A DNA stretch of 51,121 nucleotides from Halobacteriales archaeon SW_7_65_23 (GTDB lineage Archaea > Halobacteriota > Halobacteria > Halobacteriales > Haloarculaceae), in NCBI GenBank assembly GCA_003022725.1, contig PXSQ01000053.1, forward strand, positions 1 to 51,121, written 5' to 3'. Position 1 is the first letter of the stretch; each line of letters opens with the position of its first letter. Shown one piece after another: positions 1 to 51,121 of the stretch. A program made the position numbers and the translations under genes. Below the pieces are notes generated by a model, which was not told the DNA's origin, searched no databases, and was given only the letters and a program-made list of their open reading frames with translations.

Positions 1-100
1 TTGGTCGGTCGAGACCCTTCTCACGGTTCTCTTGCGTCAACAACCGTGGTCGTTTGCGGTTGCGGTGCGGTATCAGTACCGAACTTTGTGAGGTACTGAG
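1..100. repeat. 100-bp direct repeat, left copy
   Basis: Nearly identical (2 mismatches seen) to positions 8280-8379 in the same orientation; the match ends at the same place and may extend left beyond the window. It contains an 8-bp inverted repeat (TCAGTACC / GGTACTGA, 11-nt loop, about 76-102). In one frame it reads like the N-terminal part of a transposase-like protein (WSVETLLTVLL...VRYQYRTL, then a stop), and the right copy has more of that frame upstream. The two copies bracket the whole surface-protein island, so they may mark how it arrived or was duplicated. The transposase reading is inference. Confidence 0.85.
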
Positions 101-297
101 GTTCTTCGTGAGACGGATTCGAAACGTGCGACGGAAGCCCAACCGTCGATAGCGGCGTCTGTCTTGGGTTCGATGAAGACAGTCCTGTATACCTGAAGAT
201 TAAAATGGCCAGGACTCAAATACAGGGGATACGCACGGGTATATGTCTTCGAATATCAAACGGCCGTCCGAGCGCCCCCCCCTCACCTGAAGCACAC

Positions 298-936
298 ATG
301 TTGGGTGCCACATCAACAGTGACCCCAGATCCGATCTTGGAGCGCATCGGTGACGCATCAACTGTACTTTTACTCGCACCATCGCTCGACTCCTGTGAGG
401 ATGACGCGTGTCTCGACTTGCTGACCGTCACGGATCCAGCCCAAGAGAACGTGCTGTCGATCACGTTCACGCAATCGGCCACCGAGCGGGTCCAACTCTG
501 GGATGAATATATCGAGGAGCGACCGGCACAAACAGGCATCATCAGTATTGGTGAAATGATGCGGTCGACGACTGCGGACACGTCCACCACGATCCAGCAG
601 TCGGCGGGGCCGCTCGTCATCGAGACCGTGTCCGACCCAAGTGATCTGACGGATCTCGGAATGACGATCAGTTCATTCCTCTCAGAGTGGGACACCAACG
701 ATAATCAGACGGTTGCCTGTTTCCACTCCATCACGTCACTCCTCCAATACGCGGATGTCCAGCGGGTATTCCGCTTTCTCCACGTACTAACTGGGAAATT
801 CGACTCCAGCGAGGTCGTTGCGCACTATCATATGGATCCAAGCGCACACGACCAACAGACAATCAGCACGCTCACTCCCCTCTTCGACGCGATTGTCGAA
901 CGCGATGAGAACGACGAATGGACCGTCCGACAATGA
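298..936 (+). CDS. DUF7504-like haloarchaeal protein (RecA-like fold, regulatory)
   Basis: A 212-aa soluble protein. The order of segments (VLLLAPSLDS, a short strand near LSITF, an IISIGEMMRS strand, SDLTDLGMTIS, then VACFHSITSLLQY and VFRFLHVLTGKF) fits the haloarchaeal DUF7504 group, which looks like a degenerate RecA/KaiC-type ATPase without a Walker A loop and often sits near signal-transduction genes. Start chosen at ATG 298 because family-like sequence begins soon after; an in-frame ATG at 205 would add 31 unconserved-looking residues. It points toward the divergent-end PKD gene (10 bp between stops). Function unknown; family assignment is from memory of the pattern. Confidence 0.65.
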   Translation: MLGATSTVTPDPILERIGDASTVLLLAPSLDSCEDDACLDLLTVTDPAQENVLSITFTQSATERVQLWDEYIEERPAQTGIISIGEMMRSTTADTSTTIQQSAGPLVIETVSDPSDLTDLGMTISSFLSEWDTNDNQTVACFHSITSLLQYADVQRVFRFLHVLTGKFDSSEVVAHYHMDPSAHDQQTISTLTPLFDAIVERDENDEWTVRQ

Positions 937-946
937 CATCCAGTGA

Positions 947-2854
947 TTAGCTCGGTGGGAAGCGAGCGGCATGAATCGGCTGGCTCGTCCCAACGTGATT
1001 CCGGTCATCAACCGCACGTACCTGAATCTCATAGCCACCTTCAGCGGGCAGATCAACACCACCATACACGGAAATGCGCTCGGGGCTCGCCGTGTACGTG
1101 GATGCCGTCCCGACATCGATTTGCTTCCGAACGACTACCGCACCGTCCTCGCCAGTAACGGTTATCTCGACTGTGTCAAGCAGCCCGCCGGGGGACTCGA
1201 CCCGGAGCTCGTCGATATCGATACAGTCCCGGTTCGGATTCCACGTGGGAGTCCCCACCGTCACCACCCGCGGCGCGTCGGCGGCGAACGCGTCGCGAAG
1301 TAGTTTCACTCCTCGATAGATACGGGCTACCGCTTCTTGAACCAGCTGGGACCGGATGAGAAGTGCAGGAAGCGCCACCGCGATCACAGCCAATACGACT
1401 GCCGTCCACGCGGAGACTGGTGACACGACATCCTGCACCGTCGCGACCACTCCGTTCCCGCTACCAGCACTAGCGCCGATCGTCGTCGTGGCCTCGCCAG
1501 TGGCGCCGAACTCGTCCTCGACAGCGACCCGAACAGTCGCCCCGGATTCAAATTCCCGTGTGATCGTCTCGCCAACGACAGTCTCCCCACTGGGGAGCGT
1601 CCACGTCACCGTAGCATTCCCGATTTCGTTGGTGACATTCGCATGGAGCGTCGTCTGCTCGCCCGGCGTGGCGTTGGTGGCTCCCTGGATACTGACAGTT
1701 GGGTCGTCGTTCACGAGGATCTGTTGGCGAGTTTGATTCGACCGTCCTTCGGCATCGGTGACCGTGAGCGTGACGTTGTAGCGACCCGGCTCCTCGAACG
1801 CCGTTCGAAGGTCGTCACCGGCCACTGTCGTCCCGTTCGGGAGCGTCCATTGGTACGTAACCTGACTCTCGGGGAAAACGGTGAAGACGTTGAAGCCGTA
1901 CGTCCGCGCCTCTAACAGCACCGTATCCGTGGACGTCTGCACCACTTGCGTCGGGAGTAGCTGCCAGCCCTCTGGGGTCTGCCGACCGATACGTGCCTCA
2001 GTCGGGTCGGTCTCAGTGAATTTGTCCCGCGCAACCCGGATGCGCACCGTCGCAGGCTGGTCACGCAGCTCTCGAGGCGGCGTAATCGACACGATTGCGG
2101 CGGGCTTGGGATCGCTGGTGATCGCGTTTGCAGTCCGGATGTACGACCGCGTCCCGGTCAACGTGACCGACTCACCTATGATCGCTTCGGGGTCTCCAGG
2201 CTGCCCATCGTCTGGCAGCGAGTCGAGAGTAGTCACAGTGACACTCTCACCGGCATCAATATCTCCCCCGTCGAAGATCACCTCGACATCACCTTCGTCA
2301 ATATCGGTTTCGGTATCATTCTCAGTCGGTTCCGTGTCTTCAGGCGTCTCGGTGCCGGTGGGATCGTCATCAGTATCGTCAGTGGTCTCCTCGTCAGTAT
2401 CGTCAACGGTCTCCTCGTCAGGATCACCCACAGTGACCGTGAGCGTTCCCGTATCCGGCCCCTCATTATGGGTGTCGACGACGAATCCAACCGAAAGCGA
2501 TTCGCCGGGCTGGAGCGTACGCGGACGTGCCTGACCGAGTTCAGCCTCGGGGTCGGAACCCGTATAGGCAGTAACATGTCCGCCCAGGTCCGTCGTCACC
2601 CACATCTTCACCGGCTCGTCGGTCGTCGCGGTGATGGTCACGACATCGTCGACCGTGGTGGTTGCCCGGTCGTTTAGACCCTCGAAGTCAATACGTAGTT
2701 CGCCGTCCTCGATAACGGCGTATTCGCCGTTCGGCCCCTCAGCGGGTGCGAGTTCGACCCTCCCGTCGACGTCGTCCGTCCCCGTGGTCACGGCTGCTGT
2801 CGCTGGGACGGCGACGACCGCAACGACGAGGAGCGTGACGACGATGCGATGCAT
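947..2854 (-). CDS. Secreted/membrane-anchored PKD-type surface protein with DUF1102-like N-domain
   Basis: 635 aa. Residues 1-21 form a Sec signal peptide. Residues about 30-145 are a beta domain sharing a block (LNDRATTTVDDVVTIT, 60-75) with the small DUF1102-type protein next door (LNENATSEFDDILTVT). Residues 144-190 are an Asp/Thr/Glu-rich linker. Two PKD/Ig-like repeats follow (about 331-382 with YQWTLPNG and YNVTLTVTDAEG; 385-462 with VTWTLPSGE). A single membrane helix lies at 481-500, and a 135-residue beta-rich tail follows that would be cytoplasmic if the signal peptide is cleaved. Several NxT/NxS sequons suit AglB glycosylation. Likely a wall-spanning or anchoring partner of the secreted subunit; role inferred from architecture and neighbours. 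Confidence 0.75.
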   Translation of the reverse strand: MHRIVVTLLVVAVVAVPATAAVTTGTDDVDGRVELAPAEGPNGEYAVIEDGELRIDFEGLNDRATTTVDDVVTITATTDEPVKMWVTTDLGGHVTAYTGSDPEAELGQARPRTLQPGESLSVGFVVDTHNEGPDTGTLTVTVGDPDEETVDDTDEETTDDTDDDPTGTETPEDTEPTENDTETDIDEGDVEVIFDGGDIDAGESVTVTTLDSLPDDGQPGDPEAIIGESVTLTGTRSYIRTANAITSDPKPAAIVSITPPRELRDQPATVRIRVARDKFTETDPTEARIGRQTPEGWQLLPTQVVQTSTDTVLLEARTYGFNVFTVFPESQVTYQWTLPNGTTVAGDDLRTAFEEPGRYNVTLTVTDAEGRSNQTRQQILVNDDPTVSIQGATNATPGEQTTLHANVTNEIGNATVTWTLPSGETVVGETITREFESGATVRVAVEDEFGATGEATTTIGASAGSGNGVVATVQDVVSPVSAWTAVVLAVIAVALPALLIRSQLVQEAVARIYRGVKLLRDAFAADAPRVVTVGTPTWNPNRDCIDIDELRVESPGGLLDTVEITVTGEDGAVVVRKQIDVGTASTYTASPERISVYGGVDLPAEGGYEIQVRAVDDRNHVGTSQPIHAARFPPS

Positions 2855-2915
2855 GAATACCTAGCGCTCTGTGGGCCGCAGTGAGCCGTCCAGGTCGCGA
2901 TGGTTGCGACCGAGA

Positions 2916-3449
2916 TTAGTTACCGTCGTCGGCGACGATTGTGACGTTGCTTGGAACGTCGCCCACGGCGTTATTTATTAGATTGAACTTTGCACGGACG
3001 TTCACACTTCCCCAATTGCCGCCACTGTAGCTGATCGATGCGGCCTCTCCACTGCCGACGAGCGTCGAGTTGTCATCCTGGTTCTCGAAGTTGAGTGCCG
3101 AACTCGACCCAACCCCGGTTACATCTTCGAAGTAGATGTCGTATGAACTCGCGATGGCGTCGCTCGTGCTCGGGTCGCCCGCGTTCACGGTGACCGTCAA
3201 GATGTCGTCGAACTCTGACGTCGCATTCTCGTTGAGGCTGTCGAATGTGAACTCCACCTGGTTGCCGTTCACCGAGACATAGCTCCCATCTCCGGAGAGA
3301 TCGAGGTAGGCACTGCCGTCACCGACTGTGTTGGCAGTGATCGTTCGTTTTGCGGAAACCTGTGAGAAGGCGCCGGACCCGAATGCGACGCCCCCACCAG
3401 CTACAATTGTACCCAATCCAACCAGAACCTTTCTGCGATTCATGCCCAT
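2916..3449 (-). CDS. DUF1102-type secreted subunit (TasA/camelysin-like)
   Basis: 177 aa; ATG at 3449 or 3443. The N-terminus (NRRKVLVGLGTIVAGGG, then GSGAFSQVSAKRTITA) is a signal sequence followed by the GAF-x-x-V-x-x-x-R pattern seen in haloarchaeal proteins linked to SipW-like signal peptidases. The mature part is an all-beta, Asn/Ser/Asp-rich domain with no catalytic motif and no C-terminal anchor, as expected for a secreted structural subunit. The next genes are a winged-helix membrane protein (divergent) and a signal peptidase. By analogy with Bacillus TasA/CalY, processed by SipW, it may form extracellular fibres; that analogy is inference, the family resemblance is moderate. Confidence 0.7.
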   Translation of the reverse strand: MGMNRRKVLVGLGTIVAGGGVAFGSGAFSQVSAKRTITANTVGDGSAYLDLSGDGSYVSVNGNQVEFTFDSLNENATSEFDDILTVTVNAGDPSTSDAIASSYDIYFEDVTGVGSSSALNFENQDDNSTLVGSGEAASISYSGGNWGSVNVRAKFNLINNAVGDVPSNVTIVADDGN

Positions 3450-3656
3450 TGTTGTCTCACCTGAATACGCGTGGTCTGCGTAGTCGCACGTATAACACCC
3501 TCTTACTTTGTATTAGGGTACTTGAAACCAGCGAAAGCTGAGCTTGAAAGCCACCACCATCCTCACCGAATCCGGCCGCACACGGAGTGAGAACAGACAA
3601 TAGAGACGAAATCATTATCAGACCACAGATATTCTTTGTTAGTAACGGGGCAAGCA

Positions 3657-4193
3657 ATGGGGACGAGCACCACCGACGAGGGTGACCGGAATGAGATGTT
3701 CCACCTGCTCAGCAACCACCGTCGGCGGTACACGATCCATTATTGTAAAGCTGAGGACGGGCCGGTCTCTCTCTCCGATCTCGCCGAGCAAATCACCGCG
3801 TGGGAACAGGACAAGGAACTCACAGAAATCACGTCCGCGGAACGCAAGACCGTCTACACGTCGCTCCAGCAAACCCACCTCCCGACGCTGGACGAGGCCG
3901 GGATGATTCACTTCGAGAACGGCGAAGTCGAACTCACCGACCGGGCCAACGAATTGGACGTGTATCTCGATATCGTCCCGAGCGACTCGGTTCCGTGGGG
4001 TATTTACTATGCCGGGTTGTCCGCGTTCGGATTTGTGGTCCTCGGTGGCGTCTCGGCCGGGCTGGTGCCGACTGACCCAGTTCCGACCCTCGGCTGGGCA
4101 GTACTGGTACTCACCCTGTTCGCTGTCTCTGCAGTCTATCACGTGTATCAGAGCCGCAGCTACCGCCTCGGTGAACTTGAAACCCCACCATGA
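3657..4193 (+). CDS. Winged-helix (DUF7344-like) regulator with two membrane helices
   Basis: 178 aa from ATG 3657. Residues about 10-95 are a winged-helix domain (EMFHLLSNHRRRYTIHYC, SLSDLAEQI, ERKTVYTSLQQTHLPTLDEAGMI) typical of the haloarchaeal DUF7344/HTH group. Two hydrophobic helices follow (about 116-138 and 145-165). Such membrane-tethered HTH proteins are common in Halobacteria beside surface or flagellar loci and are presumed transcription regulators. It is divergent from the DUF1102-type gene and convergent with the signal peptidase gene (7 bp between stops), so it may control this island. An upstream in-frame start at 3636 is possible. Confidence 0.7.
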   Translation: MGTSTTDEGDRNEMFHLLSNHRRRYTIHYCKAEDGPVSLSDLAEQITAWEQDKELTEITSAERKTVYTSLQQTHLPTLDEAGMIHFENGEVELTDRANELDVYLDIVPSDSVPWGIYYAGLSAFGFVVLGGVSAGLVPTDPVPTLGWAVLVLTLFAVSAVYHVYQSRSYRLGELETPP

Positions 4194-4200
4194 CGTTCTG

Positions 4201-5370
4201 TCACCAGAATCGTCGTAGTTTCCGCCTGATTCGAACCTTCAGCGGGACGTTCGGACTCGGACGCATCCGGAAATACCCCGTTCCGAAGATCGCAATCCCG
4301 ACGGTCACGATAAACAACGCCACAACGAGATCGACGGCCAGCAGCGCGACCAGCGGATGAATCGAATGGAGCGCACCGAGCACGCCAACCGGCAGGATGA
4401 GCAAGTAGCGAGACTCACGGACGCCGTACGTGTACTCACCCGTTTCACGCGGCGCATCCATCTGTACATGTATCGTCTGTTGCCCATTTATCCCGAGGAT
4501 AGCACGCTCCGGGTCGACAGATACGGGCGGGTCCGGCGAATCGGTGATGACGAGCGTGGGAAAAATCCCACTGTTATGCGTCTCGTAGGTGATGTTGGCC
4601 GTCTCGCCTGGAGCAACTACCTGTGAGTCTGCTGTCGGGGAGTCCGTCACGACCACCTCGATATTGTGGCCACCCGCTGGAAGCACCATTGCGAGGGTCG
4701 CCGCCGTGGTCACGACCATGGCCGCGAGCAGCACGACGACCCACACGGCAATAAGTTCGTCACGCGACCGCGACCGAGACGTCGAGCGGTTCGTCGCGCC
4801 GCCCGTGGCACCTGCTAAAAGCATCAGAATCATCCCGCCGAATACCATAGCTGTCCCGGTTTGATCGACGCCAAGAAAGTCAAATGGAGCGGCGATTGTC
4901 GACCGAATGCCAGAGACAGCAGTCCCGAGGTAGGGAATCGCGACGACTCCGCCATTAATCTGGACCGCATACGCGACGATATCGTCCTCAGTGACGTAGG
5001 GCTCGCCATCGTCCTGATCAGTGAACGGATTGGCATCGCCCCGTGTCACGTAGCCCTGTTCAGTCTCACCAACAATGCGGTGTGTGGTCAGCCCACCACC
5101 CTGGATAGTTTCAGCCTCATAAACGACTACGTCGCCGGGAGTTGGTTCGCCCGCAAGCATCGGTGGAACGGCGATGAATCCGTCACCTGGTGATAACGCC
5201 GGCTCCATGCTCCCGGTGCTGACGAACCCGAACAGGAGTGGCTGGCCGAGAAGCTGGCTGATGACCATCACAAGAATCATGCCCACCAACAACACGGTCA
5301 CCGTGCCGGTCACCAAGCGGCGGAGTTTCATCTGGAACTGCCTCCATTCTGCCCTGTCAGGACGTAACAC
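4201..5370 (-). CDS. Signal peptidase I, SipW/Sec11 type, with fused C-terminal membrane domain
   Basis: 389 aa (start possible at internal Met14, 5331). A first membrane helix (about 20-42) leads to the box-B serine in STGSMEP (Ser54), a histidine in TTHRIVG (His97, replacing the bacterial Lys), and TRGDANPF (Asp112 region). This is the Ser-His-Asp arrangement of archaeal, ER and Bacillus SipW enzymes, which cut signal peptides on the outer face of the membrane. About 200 extra residues follow: a helix near 168-188, another near 207-231, an Ig-like extracytoplasmic domain (about 235-310) and two terminal helices. The gene lies between the likely substrate genes and the DUF5305-like gene, so a dedicated rather than housekeeping role is likely. 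Confidence 0.88.
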   Translation of the reverse strand: MLRPDRAEWRQFQMKLRRLVTGTVTVLLVGMILVMVISQLLGQPLLFGFVSTGSMEPALSPGDGFIAVPPMLAGEPTPGDVVVYEAETIQGGGLTTHRIVGETEQGYVTRGDANPFTDQDDGEPYVTEDDIVAYAVQINGGVVAIPYLGTAVSGIRSTIAAPFDFLGVDQTGTAMVFGGMILMLLAGATGGATNRSTSRSRSRDELIAVWVVVLLAAMVVTTAATLAMVLPAGGHNIEVVVTDSPTADSQVVAPGETANITYETHNSGIFPTLVITDSPDPPVSVDPERAILGINGQQTIHVQMDAPRETGEYTYGVRESRYLLILPVGVLGALHSIHPLVALLAVDLVVALFIVTVGIAIFGTGYFRMRPSPNVPLKVRIRRKLRRFW

Positions 5371-5443
5371 CAGTAGGACTCAGACAATCCCAGCTGCGCC
5401 TGGTATATATGTGCAGATCTCGTCGGCCACGGACGCTCGTCGA

Positions 5444-6469
5444 TCAGACACCAAGCCATTCTTCGAACTCTGTATTCCCTTCCGCGTAGTAGTAGACGAT
5501 ATCGTCATCCACCACGCCGTACGCCTCATAGTGACGGTCATAAATGACACGCTTGTTCGAGTCGATAGCGATATCGACGATATCCTCAAGCGTATCGATG
5601 CTGATATACTGTTTTTCGGAGTTCGTGGGGAGATCGCCGCGCGAGATCCACTCATCATGCCGCGACCGCGCCAGTTCGGTTTCGATGGTGTCGAGGTCGA
5701 ATCCCCGGAGAGACGAAATGCCAAGAACGCCTGCAAGCCCCAACGCAACGACACCAAGCAGACTCAAGCCACCGACCCGCAGCAGATCGGGTGACTGAGT
5801 GATCTCTCGGCTCGTCGTTTCCTCGTGGGTCTGCCCGGCTGCCAACGACCCCTCCACCCAGTACGCCCGGTCAGTCAGCACGATCGGGGCGGTCGCATTG
5901 AGAGTGCCTGAATAGTCCGATGTCTCATAGGTGGCTCGAAGCCGAACGACTGTCTGGAAGGTACCGACTGCGCCGATCTCGGATCGACGCTCCGCGACAG
6001 TCTGCTGGACCGCCCGCATATCGACGGTTGTCTCGGTAACGAGCTGTTCCGTCGTTGGTTGCTGTTCGCTCGTGACGAGCATCCGTCGCGACGACCAGAA
6101 CGTCTCGCCATCCCGTGTCGCACGGTGCTGGAGAACGAGACGCTGCGTGACGTTCACAGATTCTCCCTCGGGGAGATCAGTCACCGTCCGGAATGTTAGA
6201 TTCCGCGTCTCATTATAGAAATAGACCGGTTTATTCTCAAGTGTCGCACCATCTTGATAGAGGTCGGTGTCGTTCGCCACGACGGCACTGGTCATCGTCT
6301 CGCTTGCGATCCGCTGGTCGTAGACCGTCGAGGAGACCTGCTCCGTAGGTGGGTTCGTGTACGCCGCGTAGGCGCCGCCGAATGTAAGGACGCCGACGAG
6401 CGCCAGCGCGACAGCTAGGGGGATACCGTATCGGGCAACCAACCACTTCGACTGGGCAGTGACCGACAT
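5444..6469 (-). CDS. DUF5305-like membrane protein
   Basis: 341 aa. An N-terminal helix (about 14-37, GIPLAVALALVGVLTFGGAYAAY) leads to an extracytoplasmic beta domain (about 40-225, with several N-x-T/S sequons), a second helix near 228-252, and a cytosolic C-terminal part with SIDTLEDIVDIAIDSNKRVIYDR and YGVVDDDIVYYY motifs, which match the haloarchaeal DUF5305 family as I know it. DUF5305 genes usually accompany SipW-type peptidases and DUF1102 proteins. It lies 73 bp upstream of the signal peptidase on the same strand, so the two are probably co-transcribed. No enzymatic motif is visible; a scaffold or assembly role is inference. Confidence 0.78.
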   Translation of the reverse strand: MSVTAQSKWLVARYGIPLAVALALVGVLTFGGAYAAYTNPPTEQVSSTVYDQRIASETMTSAVVANDTDLYQDGATLENKPVYFYNETRNLTFRTVTDLPEGESVNVTQRLVLQHRATRDGETFWSSRRMLVTSEQQPTTEQLVTETTVDMRAVQQTVAERRSEIGAVGTFQTVVRLRATYETSDYSGTLNATAPIVLTDRAYWVEGSLAAGQTHEETTSREITQSPDLLRVGGLSLLGVVALGLAGVLGISSLRGFDLDTIETELARSRHDEWISRGDLPTNSEKQYISIDTLEDIVDIAIDSNKRVIYDRHYEAYGVVDDDIVYYYAEGNTEFEEWLGV

Positions 6470-6727
6470 CAGCCGCCCGACGGGTAGACTACCTGTATTC
6501 CCGTACGTGCCATGTTGTAAATTATCTTATCTACGGTACTAACGGTCTTTTGGTTTTTGATTTCCCGTAGGCGCTCTTTAATCATATATTGCTGGATGTA
6601 TCCCCTCCCTACTGGCTACTCGTTCGCTCCGCTCACTGCGTTGCTCCTTGAGGAAGGGGCTTACTGCCTGAAATCAGCTAAAAATCCGATGGGTTTATCA
6701 AATGTGTCAGGACTACACTACATCAAG

Positions 6728-8122
6728 ATGCGTCGGCGCAAACGCGGTGAGAGTGGGCCTCTCACCCGGCGACGGCTGCTGTTGCTCGCGGGTGCGGGGC
6801 TGGCCGGCGCTGGAGTCACCGGTACTGGCGCCTTCGAGTCGGTGACGGGGGACCGGGTCACGGATGCCTCGACGGCTAGCGACCAGAACGCGCTGCTGGG
6901 GCTGTCCGGGTTCAAGGAAAATCCGGACTCGGTCTATAAGGAGCCACATGAAGTGACGGTCACGAACCAGACCGAGTCGACACTGACCGACAACCGGGTG
7001 CGGAGCGACATCAACGGCGGGAACGGGTACCTGGAGTTCCGGGACGTAGGTGAGTCGAACTCGACGACGAACAAGGCACTCGGGGACCTATCGCCGTCCG
7101 GGAGCGACAGTTTCGAAATCGTCACCGCGCCTGACGAGTCGGGCGAGGTCACCGACACGGTCACGCTGGAATACGCCGCTCCCGGGGACATCAGCATCAC
7201 GGTTGTCCGGGACATCACGGTGAATTTTAAGTCAGGAGCCCAACTCGTCTACGCGGTCGACAGTGCCAGCCAGCAGGCCGACATCCGGGTGTACGACGCT
7301 GTCAACGACGTCCTCAACAAGCCACCACAGTCGGTGAAGGCGGACGCCATCGGTGCGAAAGCCGCCGACTTCGTCGGTGATAGAAACGCCGACATCGCGT
7401 TCGTGTCGAGGGATGACGATGACGTGTACGCGACGTGGGAAGGCGCAAGCGGTGATATCGCCCTCGGCAAGGGAACGAACCCCAGCCTGAATAAACAGAA
7501 GACGCGGCTGACAGTCGGGCCGTGGCCGCCGTCGAGTCTCTCGGGGTCGCTGGTGCTGGCTGCGGACAGCGCCGCCTCGAAAATCGTCGGTATCGACGAC
7601 AACGGCGACACCGATATCATCGCCAACCCGTCCGACGGCTGTGGGGGCGTCGCCGGGGCGAAGGACATCGACGGAGACGGAAAGCTCGAATTAGTGTTTG
7701 TCGACAGCTCACAGCAGATCCAGTATCTGGAGCAGGACGGCACGACGACGGAGGTCCAGAACGGCGGCGTCGGGGCGAACAACTCGACCGGGTTCGGCTC
7801 CCCGGCGGTGTTCCCGGGGAGTCCGCCGAGCACCTCGTCGGACCTTCTGGAGATTCCGTACATCGACGGGAGCAATAACGTCGCACTGGTGACCTACGAC
7901 GGGGAGAAGACGGTGCTGAAAGAAGGCGGGGCGAAGAAGGCGGCAATCGCCCCCATTGACATCGACGGCGACGGCGACCTCGAACTTGCGTTCCTCGGCT
8001 CCAGCAACGGAAAAATCAAGTACGTCGACAACATCCGCGGGGAGACCAAGACCAAGACACTGCAGGCCGACGGCAGCCCGGTGGTCCCCCTCGAACGGGT
8101 GGGGCTCAACTCCAAAGCTTGA
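6728..8122 (+). CDS. Secreted FG-GAP/integrin-like repeat protein
   Basis: 464 aa from ATG 6728 (a longer frame from 6557 exists but its extra 57 residues look non-native). The N-terminus has a Tat-like twin-Arg stretch (LTRRRLLLLAGAG) followed by GTGAFESVTGDRV, the same GAF-x-x-V-x-x-x-R pattern as in the DUF1102-type protein, and then ALLGLSG. Residues 60-165 are a beta domain; from about 170 on there are beta-propeller blades with calcium-type loops DIDGDGKLELVFVD and DIDGDGDLELAFLG. FG-GAP proteins are adhesins or polysaccharide-binding surface proteins. It is likely an exported partner of the island, and the shared N-terminal motif argues for common processing. Confidence 0.78.
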   Translation: MRRRKRGESGPLTRRRLLLLAGAGLAGAGVTGTGAFESVTGDRVTDASTASDQNALLGLSGFKENPDSVYKEPHEVTVTNQTESTLTDNRVRSDINGGNGYLEFRDVGESNSTTNKALGDLSPSGSDSFEIVTAPDESGEVTDTVTLEYAAPGDISITVVRDITVNFKSGAQLVYAVDSASQQADIRVYDAVNDVLNKPPQSVKADAIGAKAADFVGDRNADIAFVSRDDDDVYATWEGASGDIALGKGTNPSLNKQKTRLTVGPWPPSSLSGSLVLAADSAASKIVGIDDNGDTDIIANPSDGCGGVAGAKDIDGDGKLELVFVDSSQQIQYLEQDGTTTEVQNGGVGANNSTGFGSPAVFPGSPPSTSSDLLEIPYIDGSNNVALVTYDGEKTVLKEGGAKKAAIAPIDIDGDGDLELAFLGSSNGKIKYVDNIRGETKTKTLQADGSPVVPLERVGLNSKA

Positions 8123-8279
8123 ACGGAGCGGGCGTGCCGGGACAGTATTCGTGCAGCGTGGAACGCACTGTCAGTAAGACGTGAGGTACCAGCGAACAAG
8201 CCACCTGACGACCGATTCACTCGGTAGAGATCGACCAGGAAAGCCTGACCCGAGAGTGGCAACGCTGTCGTCGTCGCGA

Positions 8280-8379
8280 TTGGTCGGTCGAGATCCTTCT
8301 CACGGTTCTCTTGTGTCAACAACCGTGGTCGTTTGCGGTTGCGGTGCGGTATCAGTACCGAACTTTGTGAGGTACTGAG
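8280..8379. repeat. 100-bp direct repeat, right copy, in a 447-bp gene-free stretch
   Basis: Direct copy of positions 1-100. Upstream (about 8216-8367) an open frame with no start codon reads IHSVEIDQESLTREWQRC...LLTVLLCQQPWSFAVAVRYQYRTL and then stops, which looks like a short piece of a transposase or other DNA-acting protein. The rest of 8123-8569 shows no convincing gene. The repeat has the same internal TCAGTACC/GGTACTGA inverted repeat as the left copy. Confidence 0.85.
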
Positions 8380-9268: not shown

Positions 9269-9296
9269 ACCCGCACCTGGGTCGCCACACTCCTAA

Positions 9297-9442
9297 TACT
9301 GGTGGCTGTACGTACGTGAAACCTCGAATTGAGAATCCAGGCGGAACGGGTCTGTCTCCGCAGATAGACAGCCAGACGTGATTCAGGTACGCCATGCCGT
9401 CCCAACTCCCGTTGGTCGGGCCATGACATACAGCCACCAGTA
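9297..9442. mobile_element. MITE family 1, composite with a family 3 fragment
   Basis: Ends TACTGGTGGCTGTA / TACAGCCACCAGTA are perfect inverted repeats flanked by TAA direct repeats (9294-9296 and 9443-9445). The left part matches family 1 until the internal TA near 9370, where a family 3 end (GACAGCCAGACGTGA) starts; the family 3 sequence then runs to an ACAGCC word and joins the family 1 right end. This looks like insertion of family 3 into family 1 followed by a deletion between short ACAGCC repeats. Confidence 0.85.
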
Positions 9443-9546: not shown

Positions 9547-12273
9547 CTACTCGTTCAGGAGTGGACGACTCACGTTCAGGCCGAGCGAGCCGGCGCTGAG
9601 GGCCACACCGGCGAGGGTGACCAGCGGGTTCAATATCCCGACTGCGGCGAACGGGAGCACGACCGCGTTGTACAGCAGCGCGAGACCGGTGTTGCGAGCC
9701 ACCCGCTTGCGTGCCGCAGTCGCGAGGTCGAACACCGTCTCGATGGCCGTCAGGTCATCGTCGACGATAGCGAGGTCGGCAGCGTCGGAGGCCAGCGCCG
9801 TCCCGCTCCCGAGCGCGACTCCGAGATCCGCCTGTGCGAGCGCCGGCGCGTCGTTGGTCCCGTCCCCGACCATCGTGACGTGGTCGGAGCCTGCCTGCAG
9901 CGCCCGGACAGTTTCGGTTTTACCGGCCGGTGGAACGCCGGCGAACACATTCCTGACTGCCGAGTGGTCGGCAAAGCGGTCCGCGGACTGCTCGTCGTCG
10001 CCCGTCAGCACGACTGCCTCGACGTCACGGTCAGCCAACCGATCGAGCGTCCGTTGCCACTCCGCACGCGGCTGATCGTCGAGCACGATGAGCCCCTCCG
10101 CGACGCCGTCCTGGCCTACGACGACAGGCAATCGACTCCCTGCACGTTCGCCCTCGACTTGCTCCTCGATACTCTCGGGGAGCTCCCATCCCTCTTCGAC
10201 GAACAGATCCGGATGCCCCACGAGCACCTCCGTGCCGTCGACAGTCCCGCTGACGCCAGTCGCGTGCGTGTCGAAGCTGACGACGTTTGGCGGCCCCGCC
10301 GTCGCTGAGCGATCCGGCTCTGTCCCGCCGTCAGTACGTGCATCGCCAGACGGATCAGTGGTGAAGCTATTCGCGATCGCCTCGGCGGCGGGATGGCTCG
10401 CACGCCGTTCGAGTTCGGCGACGGCGGCGAGCAACTCCGGCGGCGCGTCGGCGTTCACGACACGCATCGTTCCCCGCGTCAGCGTCCCCGTCTTGTCGAA
10501 CACGACCACGTCGGTCTCCCTGATCCGCTCCAGGACGGTTTCGTCGAACACGACGACGCCCTCGGACAGCGCGTCCCGAATGTTCGTCGCCACCGAGAGC
10601 GGTGTAGCCAACCCTACCCCCCACGGAGAGAGGACGAACACGCCGGCAGTAAACGCCAGCACAGCGAGTACGGGACGGTATCCGAGCGCTAGCGTCGCCG
10701 CTGCAGCGGCCAGGCCGCCACCCAGCACGACGGGAACGAGATAGCCCGCGAGCCTGTCGACGCGGCGCTGCAGACCGTGGGTCGCGCTGTGCAGATCCCA
10801 GACCGACTCCGTGAGCCTGTCGATGCTGCTGGTCGCGTCCGGACCGACTTCGACCACAGCCGCCCCCTCGGTGACCACCGACCCGCCGACGACCGGATTC
10901 CCTGGCTCCTTGCGGACCGGGAGCGATTCACCCGTGACGACTGCCTCGTCGATCCGGCAGTGGTCGCCCCGCAGCGTCCCGTCGACGGGGATGCGCTCAC
11001 CCTGCGTGACGAGCACCCGGTCGCCCGGATCGACGTCACCCACTGGAACGGACTCGGAACTCCCGTCGGCGTCCAGCAACCGCGCCTCGCCCACCTGTGA
11101 GACCGTGAGATCGGTCAGCTGCTCGACTGCGCGCTGTTTCATCAGCGACTCGTAGAGGATCGCTGCGACGACTGTCGCGGCGATCACGATCGTCAAATCG
11201 AAGTAGACGTCCAGTCGGCCGGCCAGCAGCGCGACCATCCCGTAGAGGTACGCGCTCGTGATCGTTACCGTAACCAGAAGGTCAGTGTTCGCCGTCCGCG
11301 TCTTCAGGCTGACGTACGCGCCGCGCAACACCGGAAACCCCGAAAAAAAGAGCACGACGCCAGAGACGATGAGAAACAGCGGTAACAACACGACGGTGTC
11401 GGCGACCCCCGTCACCTGATCGAACGGGCCGATCGAAATTCCGAACGTCGAGGACACGTACACCGGGTACAGGACGACCACGTACGGCAACAGCATGAAC
11501 GTCCCGAACACGACGCCGGCGATGTACCGGAACCCGAGCATCTCGTCCATGTCGCGGCGTGCTCGTCGTTCGTTCCGGGTCTCGGCGACCCCAGTGCTAT
11601 CCCCAGTCCGGTCCTCGCTCCCCGGATCCATCGGCGTCGCCTTATACCCGACAGTCGTGAGCCGGGCACACAGCTCCTCAGGCGTGATCGTCTCCGGGTC
11701 GTGATCGACGCGGACAGTTTCCGTGACGTAACTCGCCGAGGCACCGGAGACGCCATCACACCCCGTCGCTCTCGATTCGAGGAACTGCTCGCAGGTCGGA
11801 TTGTGCATCCCGTCGACGTGCAGGAACGTCCGGGTCGTCCCGGGATCGTCGGGACCGCCCGTCGCGCTCCCAGGGCCTGACGACTCCTCATACTGGTGGC
11901 TGTACGTACGTGAAAACTCGAATTGAGAATCCAGGCGGAACGGGTCTGTCTCCGCAGATAGCAGAGACTGGTGAGTAAAAGAATTACAGCCACCAGTATC
12001 AGAGCCCTGATCGGAGGGCTGTGGCGCGCTTTCCTCTTCGGGCCCGACGGGTGCTTCCTCGAGGGTCGCTGCGACCGTTTCACACCCCCGACAGCAGAAG
12101 GTCCCCGTTGACCCCTCCCGTGGCTGTTCGTCGATCACCCCGCCACAGAGCGCACAGTTGTCGGGTGTTCGATACACGGTCCTGCCACCGAGCCGATGGG
12201 TCCGGCTCCTGGAGTAACCCGGAATCTCGCCACCTGGGGAGCGCCCCACCACCGGGACGGTACCCGAGCACAT
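9547..12273 (-). CDS. Heavy-metal (copper-type) P1B ATPase with in-frame MITE insertion
   Basis: 908 aa as read; a GTG at 12177 gives a more family-like start just before YRTPDNCALCGG. Order: Cys-rich N-terminal metal site (CALCGG, CCRGC, residues 40-64); a 37-residue MITE-derived insert (about 92-128); an HMA-like domain where GMxCxxC is GMHNPTC; membrane helices; actuator TGES; SPW at 549-551 where P1B ATPases normally have CPC; phosphorylation motif DKTGTLT (Asp593); HP motif in SHPAAEA; hinge GDGTNDAPAL. The Cys-rich N-terminus recalls FixI/CopA2-like exporters feeding cuproenzymes. All ATPase motifs are intact, so it is probably made, but the lost CPC cysteines raise doubt about metal transport or specificity. 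Confidence 0.88.
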   Translation of the reverse strand: MCSGTVPVVGRSPGGEIPGYSRSRTHRLGGRTVYRTPDNCALCGGVIDEQPREGSTGTFCCRGCETVAATLEEAPVGPEEESAPQPSDQGSDTGGCNSFTHQSLLSAETDPFRLDSQFEFSRTYSHQYEESSGPGSATGGPDDPGTTRTFLHVDGMHNPTCEQFLESRATGCDGVSGASASYVTETVRVDHDPETITPEELCARLTTVGYKATPMDPGSEDRTGDSTGVAETRNERRARRDMDEMLGFRYIAGVVFGTFMLLPYVVVLYPVYVSSTFGISIGPFDQVTGVADTVVLLPLFLIVSGVVLFFSGFPVLRGAYVSLKTRTANTDLLVTVTITSAYLYGMVALLAGRLDVYFDLTIVIAATVVAAILYESLMKQRAVEQLTDLTVSQVGEARLLDADGSSESVPVGDVDPGDRVLVTQGERIPVDGTLRGDHCRIDEAVVTGESLPVRKEPGNPVVGGSVVTEGAAVVEVGPDATSSIDRLTESVWDLHSATHGLQRRVDRLAGYLVPVVLGGGLAAAAATLALGYRPVLAVLAFTAGVFVLSPWGVGLATPLSVATNIRDALSEGVVVFDETVLERIRETDVVVFDKTGTLTRGTMRVVNADAPPELLAAVAELERRASHPAAEAIANSFTTDPSGDARTDGGTEPDRSATAGPPNVVSFDTHATGVSGTVDGTEVLVGHPDLFVEEGWELPESIEEQVEGERAGSRLPVVVGQDGVAEGLIVLDDQPRAEWQRTLDRLADRDVEAVVLTGDDEQSADRFADHSAVRNVFAGVPPAGKTETVRALQAGSDHVTMVGDGTNDAPALAQADLGVALGSGTALASDAADLAIVDDDLTAIETVFDLATAARKRVARNTGLALLYNAVVLPFAAVGILNPLVTLAGVALSAGSLGLNVSRPLLNE
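11891..11998. mobile_element. MITE family 1 inside the P-type ATPase gene
   Basis: 108 bp with 14-bp perfect terminal inverted repeats (TACTGGTGGCTGTA) and TCA target duplications at 11888-11890 and 11999-12001. Element plus one duplication equals 111 bp, exactly 37 codons, and the ATPase frame has no stop inside it. This adds residues DTGGCNSFTHQ... to ...RTYSHQY to a linker between two metal-binding parts. Confidence 0.95.
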
Positions 12274-15081: not shown

Positions 15082-15155
15082 CGGGCCGGGAGGGAGTTGA
15101 ACCCCCGACCATCTGGTTAAAAGCCAGACGCTCTGCCTGACTGAGCTACCGGCCC
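15082..15155 (-). tRNA. tRNA-Lys (anticodon TTT)
   Basis: Read on the minus strand it starts GGGCCGGTAGCTCAG, has anticodon loop CTTTTAA with a 5-bp stem (TCTGG/CCAGA), T-arm GGGGGTTCAACTCCC and acceptor pairing GGGCCGG/CCGGCCC with discriminator G. No intron and no encoded CCA. All four arms fold; anticodon UUU specifies lysine. Confidence 0.97.
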
Positions 15156-15916: not shown

Positions 15917-16008
15917 TACTGTCGGACGTAACTCTGTGTCACATCGTGACACTCTCCTGGCTGTATTCGCACGGGTGAACGGCTGAACGTGACGCGTGAC
16001 TCCACGAA
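15917..16008. mobile_element. MITE family 2, right end degraded
   Basis: Starts TACTGTCGGACGTAA after a TGA (15914-15916) and follows the family 2 sequence through the internal palindrome GTGTCAC-atc-GTGACAC and on to CTCCACGAA, where it departs from the intact copies at 16544-16651 and 38832-38940. The right inverted end is missing. It overlaps the 3' end of the small acidic gene on the minus strand. Confidence 0.85.
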
Positions 16009-16543: not shown

Positions 16544-16651
16544 TACTGTCGGACGTAACTCTGTGTCACATCGTGACACTCTCCTGGCTGTATTCGCACG
16601 GGTGAACGGCTGAACGTGATGCGTGACTCCACGAAATTACGTCCGACAGTA
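16544..16651. mobile_element. MITE family 2, intact copy nested in family 1
   Basis: 108 bp, inverted ends TACTGTCGGACGTAA / TTACGTCCGACAGTA, TCA duplication at 16541-16543 and 16652-16654. The empty site (GGATTCTCAATTCG) is present in the other family 1 copies, so the 3-bp duplication is directly proven. Confidence 0.95.
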
Positions 16652-16727
16652 TCAATTCGAGTTTTCGCGTACCTACAGCCACCAGTATCAACCCATATTC
16701 TAACAAGCTCGCACACATACACGGGGT

Positions 16728-18742: not shown

Positions 18743-19113
18743 CGTCAGTGGGTGGCTGAGGGGAGTAAGCCCCCTTCTGTTCGGCCGGCATTCGGCTGAG
18801 CGTCCGGACCGTCGTCCGGGCTACCTTTCGGTCCGGACTTGCACCGGCGAGGGTTCGCCGTTCCATCCGTTCTCTCCCGTCGATCCTCGGTGGGTCAACT
18901 CCCCGTCGCTTGCGGCGTGAGCCGTCTGGCTCGGGGTTCGCGCACCTCATCGGTCGGGGAGAGGGGTCTCGTTTCTGTTCCAGAGCCGGCGGTCTCCCGC
19001 CCCGGGCTTGCGCCCGGTCGCCCGCCCGGACGGTGGGGGGGCTTTCCTCATGCCCCTTGCGCGGCAGCGCCGCGGGCCGGGACACGGGAGCCGGTCTCCC
19101 TCTGCCACTGATC
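18743..19113 (-). ncRNA. rnpB: RNase P RNA
   Basis: On the minus strand the conserved region I motif TGAGGAAAGCCCCC lies near the 5' end (about 19050) and the conserved region V motif ACAGAAGGGGGCTTAC near the 3' end (about 18764-18779). A P1 helix can be formed by TCAGTGG near 19112 and CCACTGA near 18745. The size (about 370 nt) and strong GC-rich stems fit haloarchaeal RNase P RNA, the catalytic subunit that trims tRNA 5' leaders. Exact ends are estimated from P1. Open frames across it (for example 18555-19085) are not genes. Confidence 0.93.
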
Positions 19114-34281: not shown

Positions 34282-35013
34282 ATGCACAGACGGGCGTTCC
34301 TGAAAACTGGCGCGGCGGCAGGACTCTCGGTGTCAGTCGCCGGCTGTCTCGACGTGGGCCCGCTGTCGAGCTCTCCTGGAGCCACGGACGACGTGGTGCT
34401 CGAAAAGCCCGAACGGTACGACGACCTCCGGTCTGCCCGGGACGACGGCGCGCTGGCGTACCCGATTCACGCGGATCCGCTGCCGGAAGCGACCGTGCCG
34501 GCGCCGTTGCACGACCGGACGGTTTCGACGCGGGAGTTCGTCGGCGAGCGCCACGTGCTGATGACGTTCATCTTCACCCGGTGTCCGAACGCGTGTCAGC
34601 TGCTGACGGACGCGCTCCGGCACGTCCAGGACGACTCCGTCGAACAGGGGTTCGCCGACGAGGTCGCGTTCATGCCGGTGACGTTCGATCCGGAGCACGA
34701 CACGGCCGAGAAACTCCAGGAGCACGGCGAACGCCACAGCGTGATCAGAGAGCCCGGTCACTGGTACTACCTCCGGCCGGACGGACCCGAGCGGGCGGAG
34801 GAAGTTGTCAACGGACAGTTCGGGATCGGGTTCGAGTCACTCTCCCCCGAGGAGCGCGAGGAGCGCGGGATGGGCGAGGACATGTTCTTCCAGCACATCT
34901 CGGCCATCCTGCTGGCGAACAAGGACGGCTACGTCGAGCGACTGTACACCGGCGGCGACGCCAGCCCGGTCACCCTCGTCGACGGCGTCGAAACACTCAG
35001 GGAGCGGTGGTAA
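34282..35013 (+). CDS. SCO1/SenC family copper-related lipoprotein
   Basis: 243 aa. A Tat/lipoprotein signal (MHRRAFLKTGAAAGLSVSVAGC, lipobox Cys22), then a thioredoxin-fold domain with the Sco metal motif FTRCPNACQ and the matching His in the FFQHISAILLANKDG segment. Sco proteins deliver copper to, or reduce, the CuA site of terminal oxidases on the outer membrane face. Followed at 1 bp by a TlpA-like gene; the ccdA gene that would complete the set lies beyond a mobile insertion. Confidence 0.92.
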   Translation: MHRRAFLKTGAAAGLSVSVAGCLDVGPLSSSPGATDDVVLEKPERYDDLRSARDDGALAYPIHADPLPEATVPAPLHDRTVSTREFVGERHVLMTFIFTRCPNACQLLTDALRHVQDDSVEQGFADEVAFMPVTFDPEHDTAEKLQEHGERHSVIREPGHWYYLRPDGPERAEEVVNGQFGIGFESLSPEEREERGMGEDMFFQHISAILLANKDGYVERLYTGGDASPVTLVDGVETLRERW

Positions 35014-35014
35014 C

Positions 35015-35548
35015 ATGAAGCGACGCGAACTCCTCGCTGGCGTCGGCGCGCTGGGTGCGCTCGGCGTCGGCGGCGCGGTCGCGTTCACCGACCTGAGCCT
35101 CACCGACAGTGGCAGCGTCCAGGGCGTCGAGCCGGTCGAAATCCAGCGGTTCGAGGCCCGCGGCAGCCCGCCGGGGACGGAGATGGTGCCGGAACCGGGC
35201 AGCGTGACGTTCGTCGAGATGTTCGCCACCTGGTGTGGGATCTGTCAGCGGAACATGCCAGAACTCGTCGAGGCCGCCGAGGCAGTCGACGACGACGACG
35301 TCCAGTTTCTCTCTGTCACCAACGAGCCGGTCGGGCAGACCGTCCAGCCGGCCGACGTCGTGGAGTGGTTCGAGTCCCGCGGCGGGAACTGGCACCTGGC
35401 GGTCGACGACGAACTGGAGCTGAGCAGGCGGGTCGACGCCACGGGCGTTCCCACGCACCTGGTGTTCGACGCCGAGAACCGGATCACCTGGGAGAAAACC
35501 GGATTCACCGGGAGCGATACCATCGTCGAGCAGATCCAAAGCGCCTGA
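35015..35548 (+). CDS. TlpA-like exported thioredoxin
   Basis: 177 aa from ATG 35015. N-terminal signal/anchor (MKRRELLAGVGALGALGVGGAVAF), then MFATWCGICQRNMPELV, a CGIC active site, and the cis-Pro loop GVPTHLVF. It should pass reducing power to Sco or cytochrome-type targets outside the cell, normally fed by CcdA. Co-transcribed with sco (stop and start 1 bp apart). Its TGA stop (35546-35548) is the target duplication of an adjoining MITE. Confidence 0.92.
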   Translation: MKRRELLAGVGALGALGVGGAVAFTDLSLTDSGSVQGVEPVEIQRFEARGSPPGTEMVPEPGSVTFVEMFATWCGICQRNMPELVEAAEAVDDDDVQFLSVTNEPVGQTVQPADVVEWFESRGGNWHLAVDDELELSRRVDATGVPTHLVFDAENRITWEKTGFTGSDTIVEQIQSA

Positions 35549-38831: not shown

Positions 38832-38940
38832 TACTGTCGGACGTAACTCTGTGTCACATTGTGACACTCTCCTGGCTGTATTCGCACGGGTGAACGGCTG
38901 AACGTGACGCGTAATTCCACGAAATTACGGTCCGACAATA
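38832..38940. mobile_element. MITE family 2, full copy
   Basis: 109 bp, ends TACTGTCGGACGTAA / TTACGGTCCGACAATA (one extra base and one change), TCA duplications at 38829-38831 and 38941-38943. Carries the internal palindrome GTGTCAC-att-GTGACAC. It fills the gap between ccdA and the convergent histidine kinase gene. Confidence 0.93.
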
Positions 38941-38963
38941 TCAAGTGGTTCGAAGCTGATCGG

Positions 38964-50530: not shown

Positions 50531-50536
50531 CATCCT

Positions 50537-50556
50537 CCCCGGCGTTCACGCCGGGG
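50537..50556. repeat. Hairpin at the right end of a TnpB element
   Basis: CCCCGGCGT-TC-ACGCCGGGG, a 9-bp stem 6 bp after the DUF2270 stop. It lies beyond the 3' end of the tnpB pseudogene and matches the subterminal hairpin of IS200/IS605-type right ends; it may also act as a transcription terminator for both genes. Confidence 0.75.
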
Positions 50557-50575
50557 TTTCCCAAGCGTTGGGATA

Positions 50576-51121
50576 TTATGGTTCGCGGCGCACCTGCTCT
50601 TGTGGGCGTACTCGGCCCGTGGATTTGTCGAACAGGCGAACCGCTGGCTGTGCCATCCAGCCGTTATCCCTATCTCCCCCATCACAGGCGAGACTCGGGA
50701 GTACCTTCTGTCGGATGTTCTCGGCCCCGTTCACGTCGTGTCGTCGGTGAACCCACAGGTTGCACACGATTTCGACGTGTCGCGTTCGTCTACGCGCTCG
50801 ACGCTGATGCCGCGTTCTGCGGCTTTGTATTCCACCATCTCGGTAAAGCGGTCGAACGCCCACCCGTGCAAGTCCAGATTGCCGTGGTCGCCCCAATCGG
50901 TATCCTCGCGGATACCAGAGAGGTCGCCTACGGCAATCATGCCGACATTCCGGGCGGCGCACTCGGCCACGATGTCCGTCGAGACGGCATGGAAAAAGTG
51001 GGTGCGGCGCTCGTCGCGCTTGCGGTCCAGTCGCCGTGCCTTCTGCGAGTCGCTATCATCGCACTTCGCCCGCTCTTTCTGGAAGTAGTAGTCGTCCTCT
51101 TTGAGCGCCCCACCGGGATAC
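50576..51121 (-). pseudogene. tnpB: TnpB (OrfB, RuvC-like nuclease) gene, damaged and cut by the window edge
   Basis: From the window end inward the frame reads ALKEDDYYFQKERAKCDD, RTHFFHAVSTDIVAECAARN, IAVGDLSGIREDTDWGDHGNLDLHGWAFDRFTEMVEYKA, VDERDTSKSCATCGFTDDTT and then stops. The normal ending (NGAENIRQKVLPS...MAQPAVRLFDKSTGRVRPQEQ) continues in another frame. Of the zinc ribbon only the first CxxC remains, so a deletion with frameshift removed the second Cys pair and likely the third RuvC residue context. The nuclease is probably dead; the guide-RNA-bearing end may still be present. Confidence 0.85.

Follow-up and report, generated by a model that had tools for sequence, protein, structure and literature searches.

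The window analyzed here is the entire 51,121-base contig PXSQ01000053.1 of Halobacteriales archaeon SW_7_65_23, from a draft genome of 115 contigs that is 79% complete. Its first 8.4 kb carry genes for a small secreted subunit, a PKD-domain membrane protein, a signal peptidase, a DUF5305 protein, an FG-GAP protein, a DUF7504 protein, and a membrane winged-helix regulator. Together, they probably form a haloarchaeal Taf-like fimbria module that would work by donor-strand complementation with the help of a dedicated peptidase. The genes and parts of this module are given below; L, G, and C numbers are our handles for loci, genomes, and contigs.

205–936, plus strand: DUF7504 protein of 243 amino acids (aa) (PF24336, 142.3 bits; beside the cluster in L073, L077, L079, L087, and L091)
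947–2854, minus strand: membrane anchor with a signal peptide, a pilin-like head, a PKD spacer, a transmembrane (TM) segment at 482–500, and a tail of ~135 aa predicted to be cytoplasmic (PF00801; TM scan; head profile and tail in 25 loci; tail alignment)
2375–2785, minus strand: putative anchor head, residues 24–160, carrying an LNxxAT block also present in the subunit (hhalign, AlphaFold2 (AF2), Foldseek)
2916–3449, minus strand: small fimbrial subunit, 177 aa, TafE-like, with a twin-arginine (RR) signal and a GSG/AFSQV junction (NCBIfam TafE, PDB 9p0a, AF2)
3450–3635, no strand: intergenic region separating the divergent subunit and regulator genes, presumably for their control (gene order)
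3636–4193, plus strand: membrane winged-helix regulator, DUF7344, with two C-terminal TM segments (PF24035, 97.1 bits; TM scan; 37/40 loci)
4201–5370, minus strand: putatively dedicated S26-type signal peptidase (S54/H97/D112), plus additional TM segments around a C-terminal extracellular part (TIGR02228; motif positions and TM segments; tree; 34/40 loci)
5444–6469, minus strand: DUF5305 membrane protein with an N-terminal TM segment, a second at 233–251, and a conserved C-terminal part (PF17231, 156.5 bits; TM scan; 29/40 loci; alignment)
6557–8122, plus strand: FG-GAP protein with a TafC/pilin-like N-terminus, an RR signal, and a GTG/AFESV junction, candidate tip adhesin (TafC, FG-GAP_3, homologues)

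Every open frame named in an earlier reading of this DNA (the original prediction) was found in place, and most of its assignments stand. The proposed His-type signal peptidase scores 54.6 bits against archaeal signal peptidase I (TIGR02228), above the cut-off of 51.85, and has the anticipated catalytic residues S54 and H97, plus D112. The PKD anchored protein matches PF00801 with 48.6 bits and has a signal-like N-terminal helix and a membrane helix at 482–500. The DUF5305-like protein and the membrane winged-helix regulator were likewise identified correctly. The FG-GAP protein fared less well: the frame is present, probably starting at 6728 rather than 6557, but its match to FG-GAP_3 (PF13517) is weak, at 24.5 bits against a cut-off of 26.9. 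The description of the subunit as DUF1102-type had to be dropped, as the protein matches no Pfam family at E 0.1, and hence neither DUF1102 nor a TasA-type family.

The subunit instead resembles the NCBIfam TafE fimbrial adapter (NF052522), scoring 87.4 bits against a cut-off of 155 with positions 1–165 of 176 aligned; the subunit of a close relative, L091, reaches 153.6 bits. Against TafA (NF052520) it scores 53.5 bits, with a cut-off of 190, over positions 1–43 only. Its nearest solved protein by sequence is chain C of PDB entry 9p0a, named "Pilin" (phmmer E 2.8e-11), and a profile built from ten subunit sequences matches it over 1–152 of 166 positions at E 1.4e-32. By these sequence comparisons, the subunit is homologous to a solved pilin. 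The AF2 model (pLDDT 74.6, pTM 0.65) contains ten strands. A fold search of the PDB returned seven matches at E ≤0.001, all of them FimA in wild-type, N-terminally reversed, or self-complemented forms (best E 1.3e-4). The archaeal thread 7pnb ranked 13 (E 0.013, query TM-score 0.30) and the bundling pilus 7ueg ranked 40 (E 0.13, query TM-score 0.37). Neither TasA/CalY nor 9p0a is among the 50 of 467 matches listed. The comparison with TasA/CalY suggested by the original prediction thus gave a beta-strand, pilin-type fold of moderate confidence with FimA first, and TasA and CalY did not appear among those listed matches.

The subunit and the FG-GAP protein share the motif GAFxxVxxxR, as originally noted (GAFSQVSAKR and GAFESVTGDR), and in both it sits where the signal sequence gives way to the mature protein. 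Conservation of this junction was surveyed in 92 subunit-like frames from 47 loci, comprising the window, 40 genome loci, and six named loci; L088 and L090, which come from genomes already represented by L073 and L077, were excluded from the motif, tree, anchor, and cluster-composition counts. The pattern G[STAQ][GS]AF occurs in 80/92 frames, a figure favored by the search, the family having been detected partly via this region. Six-frame open reading frames without a match, 772,257 aa in total, contain the same pattern 12 times, and 2/87 other frames having RR and a hydrophobic stretch contain it too. By group, it is present in 1/16 PKD, 2/35 DUF5305, 0/40 peptidase, and 0/46 regulator frames. 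The residue at the last position of AFxx[?] is V in 68 and I in 4 of the 80 motif-bearing relatives. All 80 have RR upstream of GxGAF, with a single fixed spacing in 75. This twin-arginine pattern suggests that the subunits are exported by a Tat-type route. In Bacillus TasA, F occupies P2' of the site cut by the dedicated peptidase SipW (PMC10269814), and polymerization proceeds via the N-terminal strand, whose donor-strand residues F29 and I32 contact next subunits (PMC9674648). Compared by eye with the TasA sequence, the subunit appears to have the same F-x-x-I/V spacing. Elsewhere in the window, a redoxin/thioredoxin-like protein (34745–35545, plus strand) also has AF after an RR signal; it is not a fibre subunit.

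Relatives of the subunit occur in 83 of 116 family genomes and in 29 of 39 genomes drawn from the class, the window's own genome being included in both surveys. Gene company was examined in 40 loci from 40 genomes, sampled from the 83 positive genomes, mostly the better-scoring ones, as stretches of 3–19 kb. The co-occurrence that the original prediction had proposed to look for is evident: the regulator is present in 37 of these loci, the peptidase in 34, DUF5305 in 29, and a match to the PKD protein in 10. DUF5305 is found in 93/116 family genomes, mostly as one match per ~3.5 Mb genome, so its presence in 29/40 short stretches is far above chance; in the L073 genome it lies on a separate contig. 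Anchors, recognized by the head profile plus a C-terminal membrane helix, are present in 21/41 loci, window included. All five parts occur together in 14/41 loci and all but a recognized anchor in another 14/41. The complete set with FG-GAP was found in two named loci from metagenome-assembled genomes, L087 and L091, whose FG-GAP homologues match at E 3.4e-91 and 6.4e-88, respectively. The window belongs to a close clade whose PKD anchors are homologous and whose other members are L087, L091, L077/L090, L079, L073/L088, and the short contig L089; loci with close anchor homologues include those of Halobacteriales archaeon QS_4_69_225 and a Natronomonas sp. The DUF7504 gene is a seventh member that accompanies the set in close relatives, L089 being too short to tell; it is also found at L049 and L083.

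The peptidase matches the Pfam S26 family weakly. Its C-terminal half adds membrane segments around an extracellular part, where residues 248–314 give a weak immunoglobulin (Ig)-type match (15.9 of 25.5 bits). A strict pattern retained 40 catalytic regions for a tree, of which 28 came from the 46 cluster loci and 12 from the 19 non-cluster loci. The cluster peptidases all fall on one side of a branch separating them from the non-cluster ones, with support of 84/86 from a bootstrap that had not settled. One non-cluster row, L117, falls just outside the cluster group. The gene company and the separate tree group mark the enzyme as a probable dedicated peptidase.

The original prediction had also recognized a block, LNxxATxxxDDxxTxT, common to the subunit (LNENATSEFDDILTVT) and the PKD protein (LNDRATTTVDDVVTIT). 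When profiles of these regions were compared with hhalign, 110 columns aligned (probability 93.5, E 2.2e-7 in a single comparison). The resemblance thus goes beyond chance, and the anchor head appears to be a distant pilin-like domain. Its AF2 model (pLDDT 77.3, pTM 0.66) consists of beta strands. In Foldseek, the leading matches are MSP-type Ig folds, with 7ueg, the bundling pilus, in seventh place (E 6.6e-3); there is no match at E 0.001, and TasA/CalY are absent among the 50 matches listed. The head profile found nothing significant among PDB sequences (best E 0.076). One anchor homologue, L092 from the cultured haloarchaeon Halovivax asiaticus, reaches 23.1 bits against DUF1102 (PF06510), just above the 22.2 cut-off; the window anchor gave no match to PF06510 in the Pfam scan. 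In seven loci of the clade, the anchors continue beyond the membrane helix in a conserved tail of 135–139 aa, and a basic stretch after the helix suggests that this tail is cytoplasmic. The other 18 anchor-bearing loci have tails of 4–11 residues in 13 cases, 44–103 in three, and 140–144 in two; these last two (L078 and L049, 140 and 144 aa) align poorly with the clade tail and were not counted as clade-type.

Across the 25 anchors, RR is present in 4 and GAF in 5, and GAF is found in none of the seven long-tailed ones. The GAF junction is carried by anchors L093, L060, L078, L049, L082, and L075, not by those of the window's clade. Given this split among clusters, different peptidases may process different anchors. 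A polarity rule, in which an anchor without the donor motif is always an acceptor, was considered and is weakened by the five anchors with GAF.

The FG-GAP protein matches TafC (NF052521) over positions 6–205 of 373, at 28.2 bits against a cut-off of 410; a search of the PDB gave no useful match (best E 0.091). At L079, a 288-aa protein has weak TafC and TafE matches. The regulator gene is divergent from a subunit gene in 26/46 loci.

Taken together, this gene set is probably a Taf-like fibre module of an already known kind, here in a one-subunit version with a long-tailed PKD anchor. Its novelty is lower than the original prediction assumed: the TafA, TafC, and TafE families have already been named by NCBI, and TasA-like fibres in archaea have been published (PMC9674648, PMC10151520). 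No paper on the Taf names, on 9p0a, or on haloarchaeal TasA-like systems was among those listed by literature searches that covered few subscription journals or preprints.

The gene set, its homology, the junction motif, the co-occurrence, and the solved relative are established. From them we infer how polymerization, polarity, Tat use, the pairing of peptidase and substrates, and regulation would work. Both the FG-GAP protein and the 177-aa subunit would be synthesized as precursors bearing a twin-arginine signal, and Tat would export them, probably in a folded state. Cleavage at G(S/T)G/AFxxV by the dedicated signal peptidase would then free an N-terminal AFxxV strand, which would fill the groove of the next subunit by the donor-strand complementation seen in TasA, archaeal threads, and bundling pili. 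With its Sec-like signal, the anchor would hold the base of the fibre by its pilin-like head and span the membrane, and the FG-GAP protein would probably act as the adhesin at the distal end. Regulation of the genes would fall to the divergently encoded membrane winged-helix protein. An extension of this scheme, which we regard as speculative and rather unlikely, is a one-subunit Tat fibre whose subunit crosses the membrane folded and self-complemented, with cleavage between G and AFxxV triggering assembly, and in which the conserved 135-aa cytoplasmic domain of the anchor, DUF5305, and the membrane winged-helix protein report the state of the fibre to transcription. The proposed mechanism offers one testable picture of export, cutting, and anchoring of a non-type-IV archaeal fibre for a widespread haloarchaeal gene set. 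If export is indeed folded and via Tat, cleavage-triggered strand exchange would differ from both chaperone-usher pili and Sec-exported TasA. The compact one-subunit version would be a convenient minimal set for expression.

Several observations weigh against assigning the region to a fimbria module. The subunit, the FG-GAP protein, and the peptidase all fall under the cut-offs of the TafE, TafA, TafC, and SipW models. There is a lone subunit gene, closer to an "adapter" than to a major subunit, and the TafA model matched no further place in the 79%-complete genome. Confidence in the predicted subunit fold is moderate, with 26 residues below a pLDDT of 50 and query TM-scores of at most 0.45. 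The junction motif is present in 3/9 of the frames nearest the FG-GAP protein, some of the nine appearing to be antisense. Tat export is read from the RR pattern, and the only Tat profile match is weak (TIGR02811, 14.3 of 48.45 bits). The 40-locus sample is biased toward more similar loci, detection leaned on the signal region, and several fetched stretches are truncated by contig ends. In 4/41 loci, only the subunit and the regulator lie within the fetched stretch. Similar regulators are common, being present in 101/116 genomes at E 1e-25 and often in several copies, which makes the recurrence of this gene less telling.

A different use of the same genes would be a short, non-polymerizing surface complex in which a TafE-like adapter seated on the anchor head displays the FG-GAP adhesin and no long fibre is made. 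The single adapter-type subunit and the lack of TafA in the genome would fit such a complex, as would the close clusters L087, L088, L090, and L091, which have one small subunit each. However, the nearest solved relative is named a pilin, and pilins are also the closest matches of the predicted fold. The genomes with a single subunit match (the window's own, G010, G033, and G100) are 60–88% complete, whereas two others with closely similar regulators, G104 (99% complete) and G045 (97%), have two and four subunit matches, respectively. We consider the surface complex possible but clearly the less probable use. The opposite extreme to a one-subunit cluster is seen at L047 (G070:C360, 1–7386), where eight subunit-like frames lie in 7.4 kb, two on the opposite strand, with one cluster peptidase beyond. 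It is improbable that these are ordinary secreted proteins beside a housekeeping signal peptidase, grouped as general envelope genes. Signal peptidase matches do occur in 113/116 family genomes, and enzymes of the Ser/His type are usual in archaea, so the "His-type" label provides no evidence for SipW. Against this, peptidases of this form were found inside the 3–19 kb stretches of 34/40 loci and stand apart from the non-cluster ones, and the window's own genome has one other peptidase match, a weak one of 20.2 bits.

Slightly less probable still is true membership in the bacterial SipW-TasA-TapA/camelysin system by transfer from Bacillota. The peptidase does score 37.7 bits against SipW (NF046067), with four relatives at 32.8–40.2 bits, and the predicted mature start resembles the AFxxI/V described for TasA. 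The SipW cut-off is 190, however, there is no TasA-type Pfam match, the subunit family is spread through the class, and the subunits carry RR signals. The parallel with SipW-TasA drawn in the original prediction therefore survives as a way of working, with its own peptidase and probable strand exchange, but not as membership. The least probable of the alternatives is the suggestion, from the same source, of a mobile or duplicated unit framed by 100-bp direct repeats. The repeats are real, those at 1–100 and 8280–8379 being 98% identical over 100 bp, and belong to the following features.

1–100, plus strand: dispersed insertion-element end at the contig start, outside the module (repeat comparison)
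8195–8379, plus strand: second copy, apparently a solo, decayed end of the same element (8195–8233 and 8280–8379 match; repeat comparison)

The same 100 bp recur in two further near-full copies on other contigs, with shorter ends elsewhere on both strands. On contig C43, a 472-bp element is flanked by inverted ends of this type, and its interior is matched by window positions 8195–8233; the stretch 8195–8379 therefore resembles a solo end. Of the four long copies, two are located at contig starts, which fits the repeat having broken the assembly. In 48 related stretches, blastn at E 0.1 found no copy of the repeat, and the seven gene products match no recombinase family in Pfam. The neighbors are also shared: in L087 and L091, the AdoMet synthetase, CYTH, and DUF5804 genes, found at 29.4–34.3 kb of the window, lie ~5–10 kb past the cluster. 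A mobile island was rejected because the repeat is dispersed and absent from the relatives' stretches. No plasmid habit of the module was seen, the subunit gene having relatives in one plasmid record and the anchor matching five through its PKD part only. These data point to the first 8.4 kb (0.2–8.1 kb) being a conserved module in a region that appears old and resident, with rearrangement.

Other repeats and RNA genes lie elsewhere in the window. A ~98-bp sequence at 15929–16008, 16556–16655, and 38844–38945 lies in a short element with ends GATACTGTCGGACGTAA-like and TTACGTCCGACAGTATC. It occurs in at least 41 genome places at 95–100% identity, with 40 of the 144 candidates scored; several of these places are contig starts, and the copy at 16556 is apparently nested in another repeat. 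The element looks like a miniature inverted-repeat transposable element; as RNA, it folds no better than shuffled sequences (z −0.32). A 79-bp repeat at 9289–9367 and 11883–11961 occurs in at least 40 genome places at 95–100% identity (40 of 236 candidates scored), the second copy lying inside the open frame of a heavy-metal ATPase (9547–12273). On the minus strand are a match to the Rfam sense-overlapping transcript RNA sot0042 (50536–50706; 116.1 bits, gathering threshold 88), RNase P RNA (18754–19106), and a tRNA gene (15082–15155).

Among known systems, the Taf families (NF052520 TafA, NF052521 TafC, NF052522 TafE) and 9p0a come closest to the fimbria module proposed here, sharing the signal region, the GxGAF junction, a TafE-like subunit, and a TafC-like start of the FG-GAP protein. 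The window differs in that its proteins lie below all three equivalog cut-offs, no TafA was seen, and the set includes a PKD anchor with a long tail and the FG-GAP part. The TafA model also matches in S. acidocaldarius, below its cut-off. The Sulfolobus threads (Saci_0406, 7pnb) resemble the module in the fold match of the subunit (E 0.013) and in being donor-strand fibres (PMC9715654), but have a predicted LVA/DV cleavage site (PMC9715654) and isopeptide bonds (PMC11607397). The bundling pilus 7ueg is linked to the module by weak fold matches, at E 0.13 for the subunit and E 6.6e-3 for the anchor head, and is not among the sequence matches of either. With the Bacillus TasA-SipW-TapA/CalY systems, the module shares an ER-type peptidase beside a fibre subunit; its predicted mature start, AFxx(I/V), also resembles that of TasA, in which F lies at P2' and the strand makes donor-strand contacts (PMC9674648, PMC10269814). 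Its proteins match none of the corresponding models, and they carry twin-arginine signals, whereas TasA is exported through SecYEG (PMC10151520). In the haloarchaeal set, a head-PKD membrane anchor replaces TapA, and DUF5305 and a membrane regulator are added.

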